From: Acidobacteriota bacterium
GTDB taxonomy: Bacteria; Acidobacteriota; JAAYUB01
Assembly (NCBI GenBank): GCA_012517875.1
Contig: JAAYUB010000030.1
Location: 1-38,709, forward strand
Direction: 5' to 3'
DNA length: 38,709 nt
Shown here: in pieces, positions 30,737 to 38,659 of the stretch
Layout: every line of letters begins with the position of its first letter
How positions within the stretch are numbered: the first letter of the stretch is position 1
Made by a program: the position numbers and the translations under genes
Notes under the pieces: generated by a model
The model's input: the letters and a program-made list of their open reading frames with translations, nothing else
What the model was told of the DNA's origin: nothing
Database searches by the model: none

Positions 30737-31504
30737 CTATGGGTGCGCGGAACCGATGCCGATGAGCCGCATGACGCCGTCGATGAACGTGAGGGGGTGG
30801 ACGGGACAGCCGGGTACGTACAGATCCACGGCGTGCCCGTCGAAAAAGCTGCGCCGCAGAGCCGGCGACGACGCAAACACACCGCCCGAAATGGCGCAGC
30901 TTCCCACGGCGATGAGCAGGCGCGGCGCGGGCACGGCACGCCAGGTGTCTTCCAGCGCGGCAGCCATGTTCTCGGAGACCGGCCCCGTGACCACCACACC
31001 GTCGGCGTGGCGGGGCGAAGCGACGAATTCGACGCCGTAGCGGCCCATGTCGAAATTGACATTGCCGCAGGCGTTCAGCTCCATCTCGCAGCCGTTGCAG
31101 CCGCCCGCCGACACCTGGCGCAGCTTGAGTGAGCGGCTGAAGAGTCGGCGGATCTCCACCCGGACGGCGTCGGCCGCGGGCTCCGCCGCCGCGGTCACGC
31201 CCTCGCCCGTGATCAACGCCTCGCGTTTGAAGGCCGCCAGCCGGTGCTCCGTCGTGAATTCGATCGCCCTCGCGGGGCACGCCTCCTGGCAGTCGCCGCA
31301 CAGGATGCAGCGGCCCAGGTCGATGCGCAGGGGCTCGGCCGTGATGGCAGCCGCGGGGCAGATCCCCTCGCACCGCCGGCAGCGGGTACATGATGCAGAC
31401 CTCAACTCGGGCTTCCCGCGGAAAGGCGGGATCACGCTTGCCCGGAGAGGATCCGGCACGAAGGCCCAGCCGTGGCGCCGGCGGATTTTTAACAGGTCAA
31501 ACAT
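30737..31504 (-). CDS. Fused ferredoxin / NuoB-like small subunit of a hydrogenase-4-like complex
   Basis: The 255-residue cytoplasmic protein joins two subunits that are usually separate. About 30-85 holds two [4Fe-4S] motifs with all eight cysteines (C39, C42, C45, C49; C66, C69, C72, C76), as in HyfH/HycF/NuoI. About 115-255 is a HyfI/HycG/NuoB-like domain with GGCNGCE (C136, C139), GSCAISGG (C203) and PGCPVHP (C233), the four ligands of the cluster nearest the large subunit. It would pass electrons between a carrier protein and the large subunit. AAGGA eight bases before the ATG sets the start. It ends in TAG and is the last gene of the operon, 166 bases after the large subunit. Confidence 0.9.
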
Positions 31505-31586: not shown

Positions 31587-31640
31587 ACGATCACGATCAC
31601 GATCATGATCATGACTACGATTACGATTACGAGCACGAAC
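31587..31640. repeat. Degenerate hexamer repeat between the large and small subunit genes
   Basis: The plus strand reads as imperfect six-base units of the type ACGATC, then GATCAT, then ACGATT, over about 50 bases, in a 166-base gap that is richer in A and T than the surroundings. It could be a slippage-prone microsatellite or an mRNA element. No hairpin plus T-run is present. Confidence 0.6.
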
Positions 31641-31670: not shown

Positions 31671-32459
31671 TCACAGGTCATGTCCGCAATACGACAGATT
31701 GAAGCTCTTGTTGCAGAGCGGGAAATCCGAGATGCCGTTGTGGCGCACCGCCAGCGCCAGGCCGAACCAGTTGTGCACCGACGGATCCTTCACCCGGTAG
31801 CGGATCACCCGCCCGTCGCCGCCGGTGACGACCGCGTGCAGGATCTCGCCCCGCCACCCCTCCACCAGCGAAACGGCCAGCCGATCGGGAGGCAGCGTGG
31901 CGTGCGCCGAAGTGGACCGGGCGGCGCCGTCGGGAAGGTCTTCCAGCCGCTGCCGGATCACCTCGAGCGACTGGCGGATTTCCAGATATCGAATGAAGGC
32001 CCGGGCCAGGACGTCTCCGCTTTCCTGGGTGACCGGTCGGAGCGGGACGTCGGCGTACCCGCCCCACGGGTGATCGGCGCGCACGTCGCGGGGGACGCCG
32101 CTGGCACGCGCGGCCATGCCCACCAGGCCGATGCTCTCGGCCGAAGCCCGACAGACGATGCCCGTCTTCTCAAGCCGCGACAGCACCGATGCCGACGAGA
32201 AGAACTTCTCGGCCATCCCTTCAGCCTCGCTCCAGACATCGCCCAGGTTTTTCAGGATCGTGGACCGCAGCACGTCATCCACGTCGCCGCGAACGCCGCC
32301 GGTCTGAATCCAGCCGCGCCCGTAGCGACTGCCGCACGCGGCCAGCGACGTGTTGATTACCCGGGTGCGCAGCGCGCCGAACACCGCGTTGCCCGTGAGG
32401 TAGGCCACGTCGTTGGCGATGGCCGCGAGGTCACCCATGTGCACGCTGATCCGCTCCAT
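31671..32459 (-). CDS. NuoD-like large subunit, C-terminal part (after an in-frame TAG)
   Basis: The frame continues directly from the preceding gene part: its first codon, ATG at 32459, touches the TAG at 32462-32460. The 262 residues match the C-terminal two-thirds of NuoD/HycE-type large subunits, with HMGDLAAIANDVAY and WIQTGGVRGDV at the start. NuoD or hydrogenase homologues end in a DPC..C or DPVMG motif; here the protein ends PLCNKSFNLSYCGHDL with no CxxC, so no NiFe ligand pair exists. No ribosome site precedes the ATG, so separate translation could only be by stop-start coupling. Read through, the protein would be 501 residues. Confidence 0.75.
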   Translation of the reverse strand: MERISVHMGDLAAIANDVAYLTGNAVFGALRTRVINTSLAACGSRYGRGWIQTGGVRGDVDDVLRSTILKNLGDVWSEAEGMAEKFFSSASVLSRLEKTGIVCRASAESIGLVGMAARASGVPRDVRADHPWGGYADVPLRPVTQESGDVLARAFIRYLEIRQSLEVIRQRLEDLPDGAARSTSAHATLPPDRLAVSLVEGWRGEILHAVVTGGDGRVIRYRVKDPSVHNWFGLALAVRHNGISDFPLCNKSFNLSYCGHDL

Positions 32460-33176
32460 CTACAGGGCGATATCGCGCACGTACCGGGCGCGCGGCGTCG
32501 GTTCCAGCGCCATCAGCGCCTCCATGGCGCCGCAGTAGGCCAGGTTGTGCCCCACTGCCGTGTCCCCGGCGATGGACTCGGCCAGCCGGTTCCGGAACGG
32601 GTGAGCCGGCGCGGCGTCGCGCTCCAGCAGTCGCTCGACGCCGCGGTGCTGGTAACCGAGCTGGATCTCCAGATTGTGGACATCCTCACCGGCGCACTGG
32701 AAGCGGAAATGCCCCGGTTCGATCACGCCGGCGTGCACCGGCCCCACCGCCACCTCATGCACTTCCTCGCCCGCCATAGCGAAGAACGGGTAACCGGCCA
32801 TTGTCTGGGTCCTGTCCGCCCGGTCGTGGGGGTAGCGCACCGGCTTGAGCCAGGGATGCCCCTCCGGTAGCAGTCCGTGCTCCTCCCACAGCTCCCGTTC
32901 GAACACGTGGGCGGCCGACACCTCGCGGGTGATGGCCGGATAGGCGGCGCCAGGCGCCGCGGCCGCGCCGGCGATCCAGAGCCGGGCGGCGGAGTCATCG
33001 GCCAGAACGGCGTACACGGTCAAGCGGTCATCCGCGGGAACCCCGAACAGGGCCGCCAGTCGCAGTCCTTCCTGGCAGCGCCGGATGATTTCGGCGGCCA
33101 GCTCTGGCAACTTCCAGGTCGGGATGTCGGCGCGCGCCTCGCTGCAGGTGTTCCGGGTGGCGAGCCAGCCGTGCAT
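32460..33176 (-). CDS. NuoC/NuoD-like large subunit, N-terminal part (ends at an in-frame TAG)
   Basis: The 238 residues hold a NuoC-like 30 kDa domain (about 1-125, with EVSAAHVFERELWEEHGL and GHPWLKPVRYP) followed by the start of a NuoD-like domain (GEEVHEVAVGPVHAGVIEPG, LGYQHRGVERLL). In HycE-type large subunits an RVCGIC motif should follow; here the segment is LAESIAGDTAVGHNLAYCG, without CxxC. Translation stops at TAG inside the next conserved helix, after RYVRDIAL, with MERIS following in the same frame. Relatives have a Glu exactly there, so this looks like a broken or recoded gene. GGAGG five bases before the ATG at 33176 sets the start; the upstream stop is two bases away. Confidence 0.8.
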   Translation of the reverse strand: MHGWLATRNTCSEARADIPTWKLPELAAEIIRRCQEGLRLAALFGVPADDRLTVYAVLADDSAARLWIAGAAAAPGAAYPAITREVSAAHVFERELWEEHGLLPEGHPWLKPVRYPHDRADRTQTMAGYPFFAMAGEEVHEVAVGPVHAGVIEPGHFRFQCAGEDVHNLEIQLGYQHRGVERLLERDAAPAHPFRNRLAESIAGDTAVGHNLAYCGAMEALMALEPTPRARYVRDIAL

Positions 33177-33178
33177 GC

Positions 33179-34600
33179 TCACCTCCCCCCGCCCAGGCTG
33201 ACGGCCGCCCGCTGCACCAGGTCGTAAACCGGCGCAGGCATGGCCAGCCCCACCGCCACCAGGACGGCGAGGAACAGCACCTGCGGAATGTAGTTGACCA
33301 GCGGCGTCCGCTGGCTGCGCACGGAGGGGTTGGGATCGCCGAACGCCATCTGCATCACCGAATGCCCCATGCCGAACAGGATGACGGTCAGCAGGAGAAA
33401 AAACGGCACCAGCAGCCAGGCGTTGCCGCCGTCCAGGATGGCGCCGGCCATGAGAAACTCGCTCAGGAACGCCGGGAACGGCGGGAATGCGGCCAGGGCC
33501 AGGAAACCGATGATCCAGAGCCAGCCCGTCGCCCGGTCCACGCGCAGGAGGCCGCGCACGCCGGCCACGTCCTTGGTGCCGTAGTGCCCCAGGATGTTGC
33601 CCGCGGTCAGGAACAGGGACGCCTTGCCCAGCGAATGGGCCACCATGTGCAGCATGGCGGCGAAGATCCCGACGCCGCCGAGGCCCGCGCCGACGGCGAT
33701 GAGCCCCATGTTCTCGATGGACGAGTACGCCAGCATCCGTTTGTAGTTGCGGTTTTTAAGCACGAACACGGCGCACACGAACAGCGACAGGAAACCCATG
33801 GCCACCAGCAGGATCCTGGCCTGCGCGGCCTGGCCCGCCAGGTCCATGACGCGATACACCCGCAGGATGCCCAGCAGTGCGGTGTTGAGCAGCGTGCCGG
33901 AGAGCACCGCCGAGATGGGCGCCGGCGACTCGGCGTGGGCGTCGGGCAGCCAGGCGTGCACTGGGGCCAGTCCCATCTTGGTCCCGAAACCCATCAGGAT
34001 GAACGGGAACGCCAGCCGTAGCCAGAACGGCGACAGTTTGCCGGCGTTGGCGCCCAGGTCGTCGAAGAACAGCGACACGGTGTCGCCCGCGCTCATGGAC
34101 AGCAGGATGATCCCGACGAATGCCAGCGCGATGCCCACCGAGCAGATGAACACGTACTTCCAGGTCGCTTCGAGGGCGGCCTTGTTCCCCTCATAGTAGA
34201 TGAACGGGGCGCTGGCCAGGGTGGTCCCCTCGACGAAGACCCACAGCAGGCCGAGATGCGTGGAGAGGATCACGCCGGTCATGCAGCAGTTGAAGAGCAG
34301 CAGGCAGATGGCGTACCAAGTGTGCCACCGCGGGCTCAGCCCGGACTGCTTCAGAAAGTCGCCGTGATAGAAGGCTACCCCCAGGTACAGCACCGACAGG
34401 ACCAGCAGAAACAGGATGTTCAGGTCGTCCACCCGGAAGAAGGGCAGCAGCGACGACGGCTGCCGCCACAGCCAGACGGAGATCACCAGGTGGAGCACCG
34501 CGTATAGGTAGATGGTCGCCACGTTGACGGTTTTCGACTTGAGCGCCAGCAGCAGGACGCCGGCGGCAAGGGGGAACAGGATGAGGATGGCGATCAGCAT
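33179..34600 (-). CDS. hyfF: HyfF-like antiporter-type membrane subunit
   Basis: The 473-residue protein has about fourteen hydrophobic helices and the core of the NuoL/M/N and Mrp antiporter family: STHLGLLWVFVEGTTLASAPF (split here across two helices) with the key Glu, PFILMGFGTKMGLAPVHAWLPDAHAESPAPISA with the key Lys, and AYSSIENMGLIAVG. Such subunits carry protons or sodium across the inner membrane in hydrogenase-4 and complex I. It starts four bases after the HyfE-like gene and its stop nearly touches the large subunit start, so translation is probably coupled. Confidence 0.92.
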   Translation of the reverse strand: MLIAILILFPLAAGVLLLALKSKTVNVATIYLYAVLHLVISVWLWRQPSSLLPFFRVDDLNILFLLVLSVLYLGVAFYHGDFLKQSGLSPRWHTWYAICLLLFNCCMTGVILSTHLGLLWVFVEGTTLASAPFIYYEGNKAALEATWKYVFICSVGIALAFVGIILLSMSAGDTVSLFFDDLGANAGKLSPFWLRLAFPFILMGFGTKMGLAPVHAWLPDAHAESPAPISAVLSGTLLNTALLGILRVYRVMDLAGQAAQARILLVAMGFLSLFVCAVFVLKNRNYKRMLAYSSIENMGLIAVGAGLGGVGIFAAMLHMVAHSLGKASLFLTAGNILGHYGTKDVAGVRGLLRVDRATGWLWIIGFLALAAFPPFPAFLSEFLMAGAILDGGNAWLLVPFFLLLTVILFGMGHSVMQMAFGDPNPSVRSQRTPLVNYIPQVLFLAVLVAVGLAMPAPVYDLVQRAAVSLGGGR

Positions 34601-34604
34601 GGCG

Positions 34605-35240
34605 TCAATCCCGGAGATGCGTCAAAGCATCGATCTTCGATTCGTCGAAGGTGGACTTGATTTTCGTCGCGAACAGGCCCAGCAGGAAAATGCCCAGGAA
34701 GATGTCCAGCAGCACACCCAGATTCACCAGGAGCGGCATCTCCCGCGCCATGGAGAGCGACAGCAGGAAGATGCCGTTCTCCAGCATCATGTAGCCGGCG
34801 ACATGGGTGACCAGCATCTTCCGGGTGGTGATCACCAGCAGCCCGGTGAGCATGGTGGAGACCGACACGCCGAAGTACAGCGGCTTGATGTCCTGGGCGA
34901 AATCCAGCGAGCCGTACGCCAGTACGAATCCGAAAGCGAAGATCAGACTGGCGATGACCACCGAGAAAAAATTGGGGATGTACGGTTCCAGTTCCCGAAA
35001 AACGCCGTTGCGGCGGACCACCCGGCGCAGGAACCACGGGATGATGATCGCCTTGAAGCCGAGGGTCTCCACCGCGAGGAACAGCAGGTTGAGCAGGTGG
35101 AAATTCTGCCAGTCGGCGACCACCAGCAGGAACAACACCAGGCCCTGCGCCACCAGCATGCGGACGTACGCCTCGATGCGGCTGGTGGCCGCCACGTAGA
35201 GCATGGTCACGCCGAACAGGACGATCAGGAAGTTGATCAC
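34605..35240 (-). CDS. hyfE: HyfE-like membrane subunit
   Basis: The 211-residue protein has about six to seven helices and the length of HyfE (216 residues in E. coli). It has the family layout of an NuoK-like half: FLAVETLGFKAIIIPWFLRR, then VTHVAGYMMLENGIFLL with the intramembrane Glu, and LLDIFLGIFLLGLFATKI. It belongs to the membrane arm. The GTG start at 35240 is chosen because it overlaps the HyfC-like stop as GTGA; a longer upstream frame antisense-like to the HyfC gene is ignored. It precedes the HyfF-like gene by four bases. Confidence 0.88.
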   Translation of the reverse strand: MINFLIVLFGVTMLYVAATSRIEAYVRMLVAQGLVLFLLVVADWQNFHLLNLLFLAVETLGFKAIIIPWFLRRVVRRNGVFRELEPYIPNFFSVVIASLIFAFGFVLAYGSLDFAQDIKPLYFGVSVSTMLTGLLVITTRKMLVTHVAGYMMLENGIFLLSLSMAREMPLLVNLGVLLDIFLGIFLLGLFATKIKSTFDESKIDALTHLRD

Positions 35241-36160
35241 CGCAGCCCCCCGAATTTGAACAGCAGCACCACCGCCAGAACGATCAGCCCGTTGGACGTC
35301 ATCAGGAACACGAACTGCGACACATGCGTCATGCGCAGTCGCGCCGTGACCGATTCCACCAAACCGGTGGCCACGGCCACCACGGCCAGCACCAGCAGCA
35401 CCGCCGCAGCCGACACGCCAAGCGGCACCGCCGCCGGCAGCACCAGCGCGGCGATCAGCGCCCCCACGATGACCAGCTTCAAGGCGGCGGCATACTGGAG
35501 GAACGCCAGATCGGGACCCGAATGGTCCAGCACCATGACCTCGTGGATCATGGTAAGTTCGAGGTGCGTATTGGGATCGTCTACGGGCACCCGGCACCCC
35601 TCCACCAACAGCATGATGAAAAACGAGATCACGCCAAGCACCAAGGCCACCTGGAGCAGCCCGCCGGAACGCTGCAACGCCGGCAGGGCGTCGGCGAGCG
35701 ACGTCTGGCCGGCGATCGTCATGCAGCCCGCCATCAGGAGAAAGAACGCCGGCTCCACCAGTCCGGAGAACAGCGCCTCGCGACTGGCGCCCATCCCCTC
35801 GAAGCTGCTGCCGGTGTCCATGGCCGCCAGCACGCGGGCGAACTTGCCCATGGCCAGCAGGTAGGCGAAGAGCACGAAATCGCCCTCAAAGCTGATGACG
35901 GCCCCGCCGCCGGCCAGCGGCACCAGCAGCCCCGCCAGGATCACCGCGGCCAGATTCACCGACGGGGCCAGCCGGAAGACCGGCGTGGTCGTGTCGCTGA
36001 TCACCGCCCCCTTGCGCAGCAGGCGGAGGAAATCGTGGAACGGCTGCATCAGCGGCGCCCCGCGCCGGCCGGCCCATATGGCCTTGGTCCGGTTGATCAC
36101 GCCCACCAGCAACAGGGGTGCGCCGAGCAGAATGAATAGGTTGACGGCCAGGTTCAGCAT
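35237..36160 (-). CDS. hyfC: HyfC/NuoH-like membrane subunit
   Basis: The 307-residue protein has about eight helices and belongs to the NuoH/HycD family that anchors the soluble arm. Typical segments are WAGRRGAPLMQPFHDFLRLL, a GARxG-like N-terminal loop, and the acidic loop VDDPNTHLELTMIHEVM facing the large subunit; these match the quinone-cavity loops of NuoH. GGAG eight bases before the ATG supports the start. Its stop overlaps the HyfE-like start, and the HyfB-like gene ends 46 bases upstream. Confidence 0.92.
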   Translation of the reverse strand: MLNLAVNLFILLGAPLLLVGVINRTKAIWAGRRGAPLMQPFHDFLRLLRKGAVISDTTTPVFRLAPSVNLAAVILAGLLVPLAGGGAVISFEGDFVLFAYLLAMGKFARVLAAMDTGSSFEGMGASREALFSGLVEPAFFLLMAGCMTIAGQTSLADALPALQRSGGLLQVALVLGVISFFIMLLVEGCRVPVDDPNTHLELTMIHEVMVLDHSGPDLAFLQYAAALKLVIVGALIAALVLPAAVPLGVSAAAVLLVLAVVAVATGLVESVTARLRMTHVSQFVFLMTSNGLIVLAVVLLFKFGGLR

Positions 36161-36206: not shown

Positions 36207-38198
36207 TCACACCACCGCCATCCAGATCAGGGTGACGGCCAGAAAGACCAGGCCGTAGAAAATGTAGCGCTGGGTGCTGCCGCTTTGGATCCACGTGAAG
36301 CGCGTTAAGAACCGGTTCAGACGGTTCACCAACGGCTGGATCAGCCAGGCCTCGAAGATGTTCCCCGGATGGGTTTCAAACGAGGCCGAGTCGGGGAAGA
36401 AGCCCGTCGGCTGCTCGAGCTTCGTCTCCAGCGCCAGCACCGGATTGGTCAGGGCCAGCACCGGCGCGGCGAACGACGAGGCCGTGTACTGCATCCGGGG
36501 CGTCCCCGCCCCGTAGCCGCAATCCCACGTCCGGAAGGTTTCCACCGGTCGGCCGCCGAGCAGCAGTCGGCGCAACGCCATCAGCCCCGCGGTCAGGACG
36601 ACCAATCCCGCTGCAATGAGCGAGATGCGCTGCAGCAATTCGAGCACCGGCAGGCGGGCCGGCAGCGCTGTCGCACCAGCCAGCAGGCGGGCCGCCGGCA
36701 GGACCAGCGTCACCGCCGCCTGCGGCAGCACGCCGATGAGCAGGGCCAGGGCGCCGAGCAGAAGCATGGGTCCGCGCATGCTCCAGCCGGGATCGCGCAT
36801 GTCCGGCGGCGGCGGCTGACGGGGAATTCCCAGGAAGGCCACACCGCAGACCTTGGCGAAGCAGATGAGCGCCAGCACGCCCACCAGCGCCAGCACCGCC
36901 ATCACCAGGGCGGACACCAGCACCAGCGCCACCCGCTGGCCCACCAAACCGCTGAACGCGGCGGCGTACACCAGAAACTCGCTGACGAACCCGTTGAAGG
37001 GCGGCAGGCCGCAGATGGCCGCGGAGCCCACGATGAACAGTCCGGCCGTGACCGGCATGCGGCGGGCGATGCCGCCCATCCGCTCGAGGTCGCGGGTGTG
37101 CAGCCGCCGGTAGACCGCGCCGGCGGCGTAAAACAGCAACGCCTTGAAGATGGAATGGTTCAGGACGTGCAACACGGCGCCGGCGAAGCCGAGGAAGGCG
37201 ATCATGGGGGCGCTGTACGCCAGTCCGAGCATGCCCATGCCGATGCCCAGACCGATGATGCCGATGTTCTCCACGCTGTGGTAGGCCAGCAGGCGTTTCA
37301 GGTCGTGCTGGGCGATGTCGTACACCACCCCGAGCACCGCCGAGGCGGCGGCAATGGCAAGGACGGCCAGCGCCAGTTCCACCGGCGGCTTGCCCAGCCA
37401 CGACACGACGCGCAGGATGCCATAGATGCCCGTCTTGATCATGATCCCCGACATGATGCCGGACACGTGCGACGGTGCCGCCGGGTGGGCCCGGGGCAGC
37501 CATGTCTGCAAGGGAACAAAGCCGGCCTTGATGCCGAATCCGGCAAAGAAGAGGAGGAAAATCCCCGGCGCAGGGAACTTCAGATCCTGGAAAACAGCGG
37601 CGAAGTGTCGGAAATCCATCCCTGCCCCGCGGCCGCCGACGAAGAGGAATCCGGTGATGAGACAGACCACGCCAACGTGCATGGATACGAGGTAGTTCAG
37701 ACCGGCGTCCACCACCTCGTCCTTCCAGTGCTCGGTGACCACCAAGAAGAAGGACGCCAGCGACATGATCTCCCACACAATGAGGAAAGCCAGGGCGTGC
37801 TGCACCACCGTCACCAGCAGCATGCTGGCGGTGAGCAGGCCGAGACAGAAGAAGTGACCGCCCAGCCGCTCCGGCCTGACCGACGCGGCATCGGATCCGG
37901 CGCGGAGATAGCCGGTGCCATAGATCCCGCCCAGCAGACAGGTCAGGGCGATAGCCAGGGCGAAGAACGCCGACAGCGGATCCAGCACCAACGGTACGTC
38001 ACCGAAGAGCGGTCCCGCGGCAAGCACCCGGGTCTCCGTCCCGCCACTCCAGATGGCGAGCCAGGCGCCGACCATGACCACCAGACAACCGGCGGCGGAC
38101 AGCAGGGTGCTGAGGCGGCTCTTCCAGTCGGCGGGGACGACCAGGGCAGCTAGGCTGCCGGTCAGGATGAGAGTGATCCCGATGACGAACAGATCCAT
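36207..38198 (-). CDS. hyfB: HyfB-like antiporter-type membrane subunit
   Basis: The 663-residue protein is the first gene of the operon. It has about sixteen helices, the antiporter core (WEIMSLASFFLVVTEHW with the key Glu, GFGIKAGFVPLQTWLPRAHP with the key Lys, and LLAYHSVENIGIIGLG) and the HyfB-type tail (TWDCGYGAGTPRMQYTASSFA). It would move protons or sodium ions, coupled to electron transfer in the soluble arm. The ATG has GGAG seven bases upstream. A good promoter lies about 150 bases upstream (38346-38374). The order B-C-E-F-large-small matches hydrogenase-4-type operons. Confidence 0.93.
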   Translation of the reverse strand: MDLFVIGITLILTGSLAALVVPADWKSRLSTLLSAAGCLVVMVGAWLAIWSGGTETRVLAAGPLFGDVPLVLDPLSAFFALAIALTCLLGGIYGTGYLRAGSDAASVRPERLGGHFFCLGLLTASMLLVTVVQHALAFLIVWEIMSLASFFLVVTEHWKDEVVDAGLNYLVSMHVGVVCLITGFLFVGGRGAGMDFRHFAAVFQDLKFPAPGIFLLFFAGFGIKAGFVPLQTWLPRAHPAAPSHVSGIMSGIMIKTGIYGILRVVSWLGKPPVELALAVLAIAAASAVLGVVYDIAQHDLKRLLAYHSVENIGIIGLGIGMGMLGLAYSAPMIAFLGFAGAVLHVLNHSIFKALLFYAAGAVYRRLHTRDLERMGGIARRMPVTAGLFIVGSAAICGLPPFNGFVSEFLVYAAAFSGLVGQRVALVLVSALVMAVLALVGVLALICFAKVCGVAFLGIPRQPPPPDMRDPGWSMRGPMLLLGALALLIGVLPQAAVTLVLPAARLLAGATALPARLPVLELLQRISLIAAGLVVLTAGLMALRRLLLGGRPVETFRTWDCGYGAGTPRMQYTASSFAAPVLALTNPVLALETKLEQPTGFFPDSASFETHPGNIFEAWLIQPLVNRLNRFLTRFTWIQSGSTQRYIFYGLVFLAVTLIWMAVV

Positions 38199-38582: not shown

Positions 38583-38659
38583 TGGCGGGGTTGACGAGAC
38601 TCGAACTCGCGACCTTCGGCGTGACAGGCCGACGTTCTAACCAACTGAACTACAACCCC
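38583..38659 (-). tRNA. tRNA-Asp (GTC)
   Basis: The 77-base sequence folds as a full cloverleaf on the minus strand: acceptor stem GGGGTTG/CAACCCC, D arm with AGTTGGTTA, anticodon loop CTGTCAC giving anticodon GTC, and T loop TTCGAGT. G73 is present, as expected for Asp, and the CCA end is encoded. A T-run terminator follows seven bases later. Confidence 0.97.

Follow-up and report, generated by a model that had tools for sequence, protein, structure and literature searches.

An in-frame TAG at an invariant glutamate codon in the large-subunit gene of an Ehr-type operon from an Acidobacteriota genome

An Ehr operon with a stop codon in its large-subunit gene

Energy-converting hydrogenase-related (Ehr) complexes are similar to group-4 [NiFe]-hydrogenases, without the NiFe ligands (PMC6349859). 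In common with these complexes, an operon within the window that we analyzed (38,709 nt, positions 1 to 38,709 of contig JAAYUB010000030.1) contains genes for HyfB-, HyfC-, HyfE- and HyfF-type membrane subunits, for a large subunit that joins NuoC and NuoD domains and for a NuoB-like small subunit, and lacks the NiFe CxxC motif; the sole difference is an in-frame TAG in the large-subunit gene, the sister species carrying the operon intact. Pfam and NCBIfam matches to all six genes show a NuoB/C/D-like hydrophilic module together with NuoH- and antiporter-like membrane subunits in a single operon (Table 1). The large subunit of the formate hydrogenlyase of Escherichia coli, HycE (7z0s chain E), is built from the same two domains and has the conserved Glu at the aligned position (RAILLEVERLHSH) but, unlike the protein described here, retains the NiFe ligands and has no stop. 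The window belongs to a metagenome-assembled genome (MAG), hereafter G000, whose 182 contigs total 4.02 Mb with 95.9% completeness; it was compared with two genomes of the same genus, G001 (an Acidobacteriota MAG, JAKQOW010000092.1) and G002 (JAGOHA010000086.1).

Table 1. Features of the Ehr operon, with positions in the window
Feature	Position	Strand	Basis
Small subunit, N-terminal ferredoxin-type domain (HyfH-like) plus NuoB-like domain; ends in TAG	30737..31504	-	Domain matches; frame 5' of 31504 interrupted in sister G001
C-terminal half of the large subunit, NuoD-like, 262 codons, ATG right after the TAG, ends in TGA	31671..32459	-	PF00346; omega 0.22 and 0.33 vs the sisters
In-frame TAG, codon 241, on an invariant Glu codon	32460..32462	-	GAG in the sisters; homologue alignment
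Ehr/Hyf-type large subunit, N-terminal half: NuoC-like domain plus start of NuoD-like domain, 240 codons from GTG	32463..33182	-	PF00329; omega 0.25 and 0.20 vs the two sisters
HyfF-type antiporter-like membrane subunit, intact	33179..34600	-	Domain matches; sister comparison
HyfE-like membrane subunit, intact, start approximate	34605..35258	-	NF008556 match, frame residues 117-329; in sister G001 a stop lies further upstream in frame
HyfC/NuoH-like membrane subunit, intact	35237..36160	-	PF00146; sister comparison
HyfB-type antiporter-like membrane subunit, intact, first gene of the operon	36207..38198	-	NF005086, 539 bits; sister comparison

When the TAG is read through, the large-subunit gene forms one frame of 503 codons on the minus strand (33182..31671), starting with GTG at 33182 and ending with TGA at 31673–31671, and composed of 240 codons, the TAG and 262 codons; the 501 residues given for the joined translation in a preliminary description of this DNA, made from the sequence alone, should be corrected accordingly. 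As that description stated, there is no shift of frame around the stop, the consecutive minus-strand codons being CTG (32465–32463), TAG (32462–32460) and ATG (32459–32457). The sequence on either side is coding and conserved, beyond what chance would give. Complex1_30kDa (PF00329) is matched by the N-terminal half, and the match to Complex1_49kDa (PF00346) begins 17 residues past the TAG. The Cys ligands of the NiFe centre are missing from the translation, with no CxxC near residues 200–212, where ESIAGDTAVGH stands in place of the expected CGIC motif, and none at the C-terminus (CNKSFNLSYCGHDL); the large subunit therefore fits the Ehr group (PMC6349859). It is single-copy in G000, the other matches being distant paralogues with around 30% identity. 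The gene is an Ehr/Hyf-type large subunit (NuoC plus NuoD domains) in an intact operon, and comparison with the sisters bore out the earlier impression that the neighbouring operon genes are undamaged.

Several other traits of this region were noted. In the gap between the large- and small-subunit genes (31589–31636), degenerate hexamers (GATCAC/GATTAC/GATCAT/GAGCAC) follow one another in a run, and similar runs occur at four more places in 1.48 Mb of G000 as well as in the same gap of G001. Positions 31700–32000 show 99% identity to G001 vs only 91% to G002, a pattern from which the flanks differ, and this 300-base tract likely results from a recent recombination. The HyfF gene has an unusually low dS, 0.08 vs 0.2–0.3 in other genes. 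Additionally, two equal-scoring tRNA-Asp(GTC) genes lie at contig ends (window 38586–38659, contig C30, and G000:C22:18-91), and the assembly may break at this repeat at the ends of C30 and C22.

Conservation of the TAG position among relatives

The codon at the TAG position is GAG in both same-genus genomes, whose identity is 92% (G001) and 91% (G002) and whose copies of the gene contain no stop, so that, as first proposed, a single base change from GAG suffices to produce the stop. All 63 aligned homologues, among them paralogues with 25–33% identity, have Glu in the corresponding column (query residue 241), and the PDB chains of HycE, MbhL and Nqo4 likewise have a Glu there; the context of this Glu is E-x-E-R here and E-L-x-R in NuoD. 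The placement of the TAG within the conserved helix of the Ehr/HycE/NuoD large subunits, and of the break inside the NuoD fold, is upheld. TAG itself was found at this position in none of the 63 homologues and in neither sister, indicating that it is not a conserved recoding site.

The remainder of the gene appears to have evolved as in the sisters. All 67 of the other near-invariant residues of the large subunit are kept, and omega against the sisters ranges from 0.20 to 0.33 across both halves (0.22 and 0.25 vs G001), with similar values in the neighbouring genes. When codon changes in the large subunit were polarised on the three genomes, we obtained 29 synonymous and 21 non-synonymous changes for G000, 19 and 10 for G001, and 27 and 18 for G002, showing no relaxation of constraint on the G000 branch. 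Together, the branch counts, the omega values and the 67 retained residues indicate that normal selection acted on the frame over essentially the entire branch. The TAG is thus a lone substitution, private to one assembly, with unchanged constraint on either side, which implies that the change is either very recent or an error in a base.

Isolated in-frame stops in the rest of the genome

We searched 1.48 Mb of the 4.02 Mb of G000 for further stops, and the paired comparison with G001 covered 491 kb of aligned sequence (about 136,000 codons). An in-frame stop was accepted only if its frame was the best of the six by codon usage; antisense frames and regions 5' of the true starts were discarded. 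Within the 491 kb, G000 has six convincing stops in conserved genes, all of them TAG (a seventh, a TGA in a low-complexity frame, is doubtful), vs a single one, also TAG, in G001; this is not a significant excess because the G000 branch is longer, with 831 private changes vs 354 on that of the sister. In G001, an AcrB-type pump gene carries an in-frame TAG (G001:C182:7287) where G000 has CAG (C102:23761).

Over the 1.48 Mb, 12 otherwise intact genes of G000 contain one isolated stop (10 TAG, one TGA and one TAA). The TAG is found in the genes for the Ehr large subunit, PBP2 (mrdA), a NifU/ApbC fusion, a hexapeptide transferase, an AcrB-type pump, a TRAP T-component, ATP sulfurylase and HdrA, as well as in two C53 genes, of which one has aspartyl protease domains and the other no Pfam match. 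The remaining two are a TAA in a gene for a GAF-SpoIIE protein and a TGA in an [FeFe]-hydrogenase-type gene of 575 residues (G000:C58:12784, L244), where both sisters have GGG. The TAG of mrdA (G000:C17:33369, L132:13369) corresponds to GAG in G002, and the mreB-mreC-mreD-mrdA-rodA operon is otherwise intact. Genes with several stops also exist in G000, namely a kinase (C77:56587) and a phosphodiesterase (near C17:40100), and their inclusion brings the stops to 12 TAG, 3 TGA and 2 TAA; a TAG in the kinase gene (C77:56938) was rejected as an isolated stop because the gene also has two TGAs and is decayed. From codon usage and four-fold-site rates, new stops are expected to be TAG in 65%, TGA in 19% and TAA in 16% of cases, and 10 TAG among 12 gives P = 0.15; there is, then, no TAG-specific signal among the G000 stops.

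A first count of frameshifts was spoiled by indels 5' of starts and was replaced by a tblastn test, which revealed none, in either direction, in around 400 gene pairs of G000 and G001. Among the seven single-step cases with a known sister codon, four are G>T/C>A changes vs 16% expected (P = 0.016), although no excess of C>A is seen in the whole-branch substitution spectrum of G000; three of the 12 single-stop cases are two bases away from the sister codon. A random substitution creates a stop with a probability of 0.027, and the implied error rate if all the stops were errors is around 3.6e-4 per base, which we judge plausible for a thinly covered MAG.

A stop of another kind was seen in a gene for an MtrB/PioB-type outer-membrane protein (PF11854; G000:C22:42431, L238:2431), with an in-frame TGA (VQPVWNG-TGA-AAGITTGQFGS) that is common to sister G002 (locus L249), the frame being conserved on both sides. 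Since SelB and a strong tRNA-Sec (G000:C85:63292-63385) are present in the lineage, this TGA is a candidate selenocysteine codon; the RNA fold 3' of it was no better than those of shuffled sequences.

Consensus errors in short-read data are mostly substitutions, while the spectra of real inactivating mutations and gene loss should include frameshifts. With about a dozen isolated stops across the 1.48 Mb and not one frameshift where comparison was feasible, a base error and a real nonsense allele become about equally likely. The lack of frameshifts, the excess of G>T/C>A and the hit in mrdA, which is unlikely to be lost alone from its operon, tip the balance toward wrong consensus bases, and a base error thus appears about as likely as, or slightly likelier than, a real recent null allele. 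We rate a consensus base error of the MAG as the most probable origin of the Ehr TAG, at chances that are about evenly balanced. The TAG, a private single-base substitution (G>T on the coding strand) in one assembly, would then be without function and located in the assembled sequence and not in the cell, and the organism would keep GAG and make a normal large subunit of 503 residues. Counting against this explanation are the three two-base cases, poorly explained by single errors, the genes with several stops, which show that real decay occurs in G000, and the whole-branch spectrum.

The main alternative, to which we assign a somewhat smaller chance, is a real and very recent nonsense mutation, by which the strain would make a fragment of 240 residues and no functional Ehr complex, in an operon that has not yet decayed. 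The types of stops match those from random mutation, most of the affected genes look dispensable, a second close copy of the large subunit is absent from the genome, and the multi-stop genes also fit real mutation; besides, having around 1% of the genes interrupted is ordinary for a bacterium. The same observations that favour a base error speak against a nonsense mutation, since nonsense changes come without accompanying frameshifts in the around 400 gene pairs, affect a gene inside the intact rod-shape operon and show the G>T/C>A bias.

Decoding of TAG and comparison with known cases

It is unlikely that TAG is read as an amino acid, whether through a natural suppressor tRNA for amber codons or through partial reassignment, with true termination elsewhere. 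In favour of this reading, ten of the 12 isolated stops, and every single-step case, are TAG, genes of apparent importance, mrdA for example, are affected, frameshifts are absent from the gene pairs compared, and the tRNA list is incomplete, with the His, Asn and Ile tRNAs missing from the MAG. Against it, RF1 (prfA) shows no loss or alteration in G000, being full-length (532 bits) with its PAT (VPATE) and GGQ motifs; no tRNA with a CUA anticodon was found among the 40 tRNAs of G000, a set that lacks some isotypes, and the best match to PylS reached 23.5 bits, with a cut-off of 178. Likewise, terminal TAG is not depleted in G000 (99 of 524 gene ends vs 81 of 458 in the sister) and TAG and TAA are exchanged in balance, the share of TAG over all stops fits chance, and the sister codons are spread over E, Q, Y and S instead of encoding one amino acid. 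Suppression specific to TAG had been suggested by the six paired cases, and was discarded once the 1.48 Mb scan added the TGA of the [FeFe] hydrogenase and the TAA of the GAF-SpoIIE gene, returning the mix to expectation. The preliminary description, which judged genome-wide reassignment unlikely from the use of TAG to end the DUF72, thioesterase and small-subunit genes, is borne out as to DUF72 (5038) and the small-subunit gene (30737), and its conclusion agrees with the intact RF1 and the normal use of terminal TAG: reassignment is in practice excluded, and weak suppression is improbable. The narrower scenario, in which the gene for a natural amber suppressor tRNA lies on the part missing from the MAG and lets in-frame TAG drift into genes like mrdA, with RF1 still ending others, is more improbable still. 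Two tRNA-like fragments (G000:C58:344-401 and C7:433-480) were rejected as amber suppressors because their anticodons read by eye as TCT and TCG (Arg), not CTA, and ARAGORN calls neither; they seemingly lack a D-arm, keep the T-arm and a CCA-like end, and are perhaps integration-site remnants.

Least probable of all is stop-start coupling, in which ribosomes would reinitiate at TAGATG and the two resulting subunits would assemble into a functional split large subunit. An in-frame ATG does directly follow the TAG, and constraint persists on both halves. However, the gene is split in neither the sisters nor any of the 63 homologues, in the sisters this ATG serves as a plain Met codon, the sequence before it (GATATCGCCCTGTAG) contains nothing resembling a Shine-Dalgarno motif, and the break takes the invariant Glu out of a conserved stretch of the NuoD fold.

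The consequences differ between the two leading explanations. If the stop is real, translation would halt after residue 240, leaving out most of the NuoD fold, and, by what is expected for the family, the peripheral arm of Ehr could not form; if it is an error, the Ehr operon is normal and intact. For annotation, this case is a warning that a single base can give an intact energy-converting complex the appearance of being lost or split in a MAG; roughly a dozen further genes within the 1.48 Mb look truncated likewise. Were the stops real and read through, this would be a notable natural amber-suppressing bacterium with RF1 intact. We found no feature separating the Ehr TAG from ordinary amber nonsense mutations and MAG base errors, with which it shares a single substitution, private to one assembly, in an otherwise intact frame; it is therefore an ordinary nonsense mutation or base error, and involves no new mechanism or mode of reading genes.
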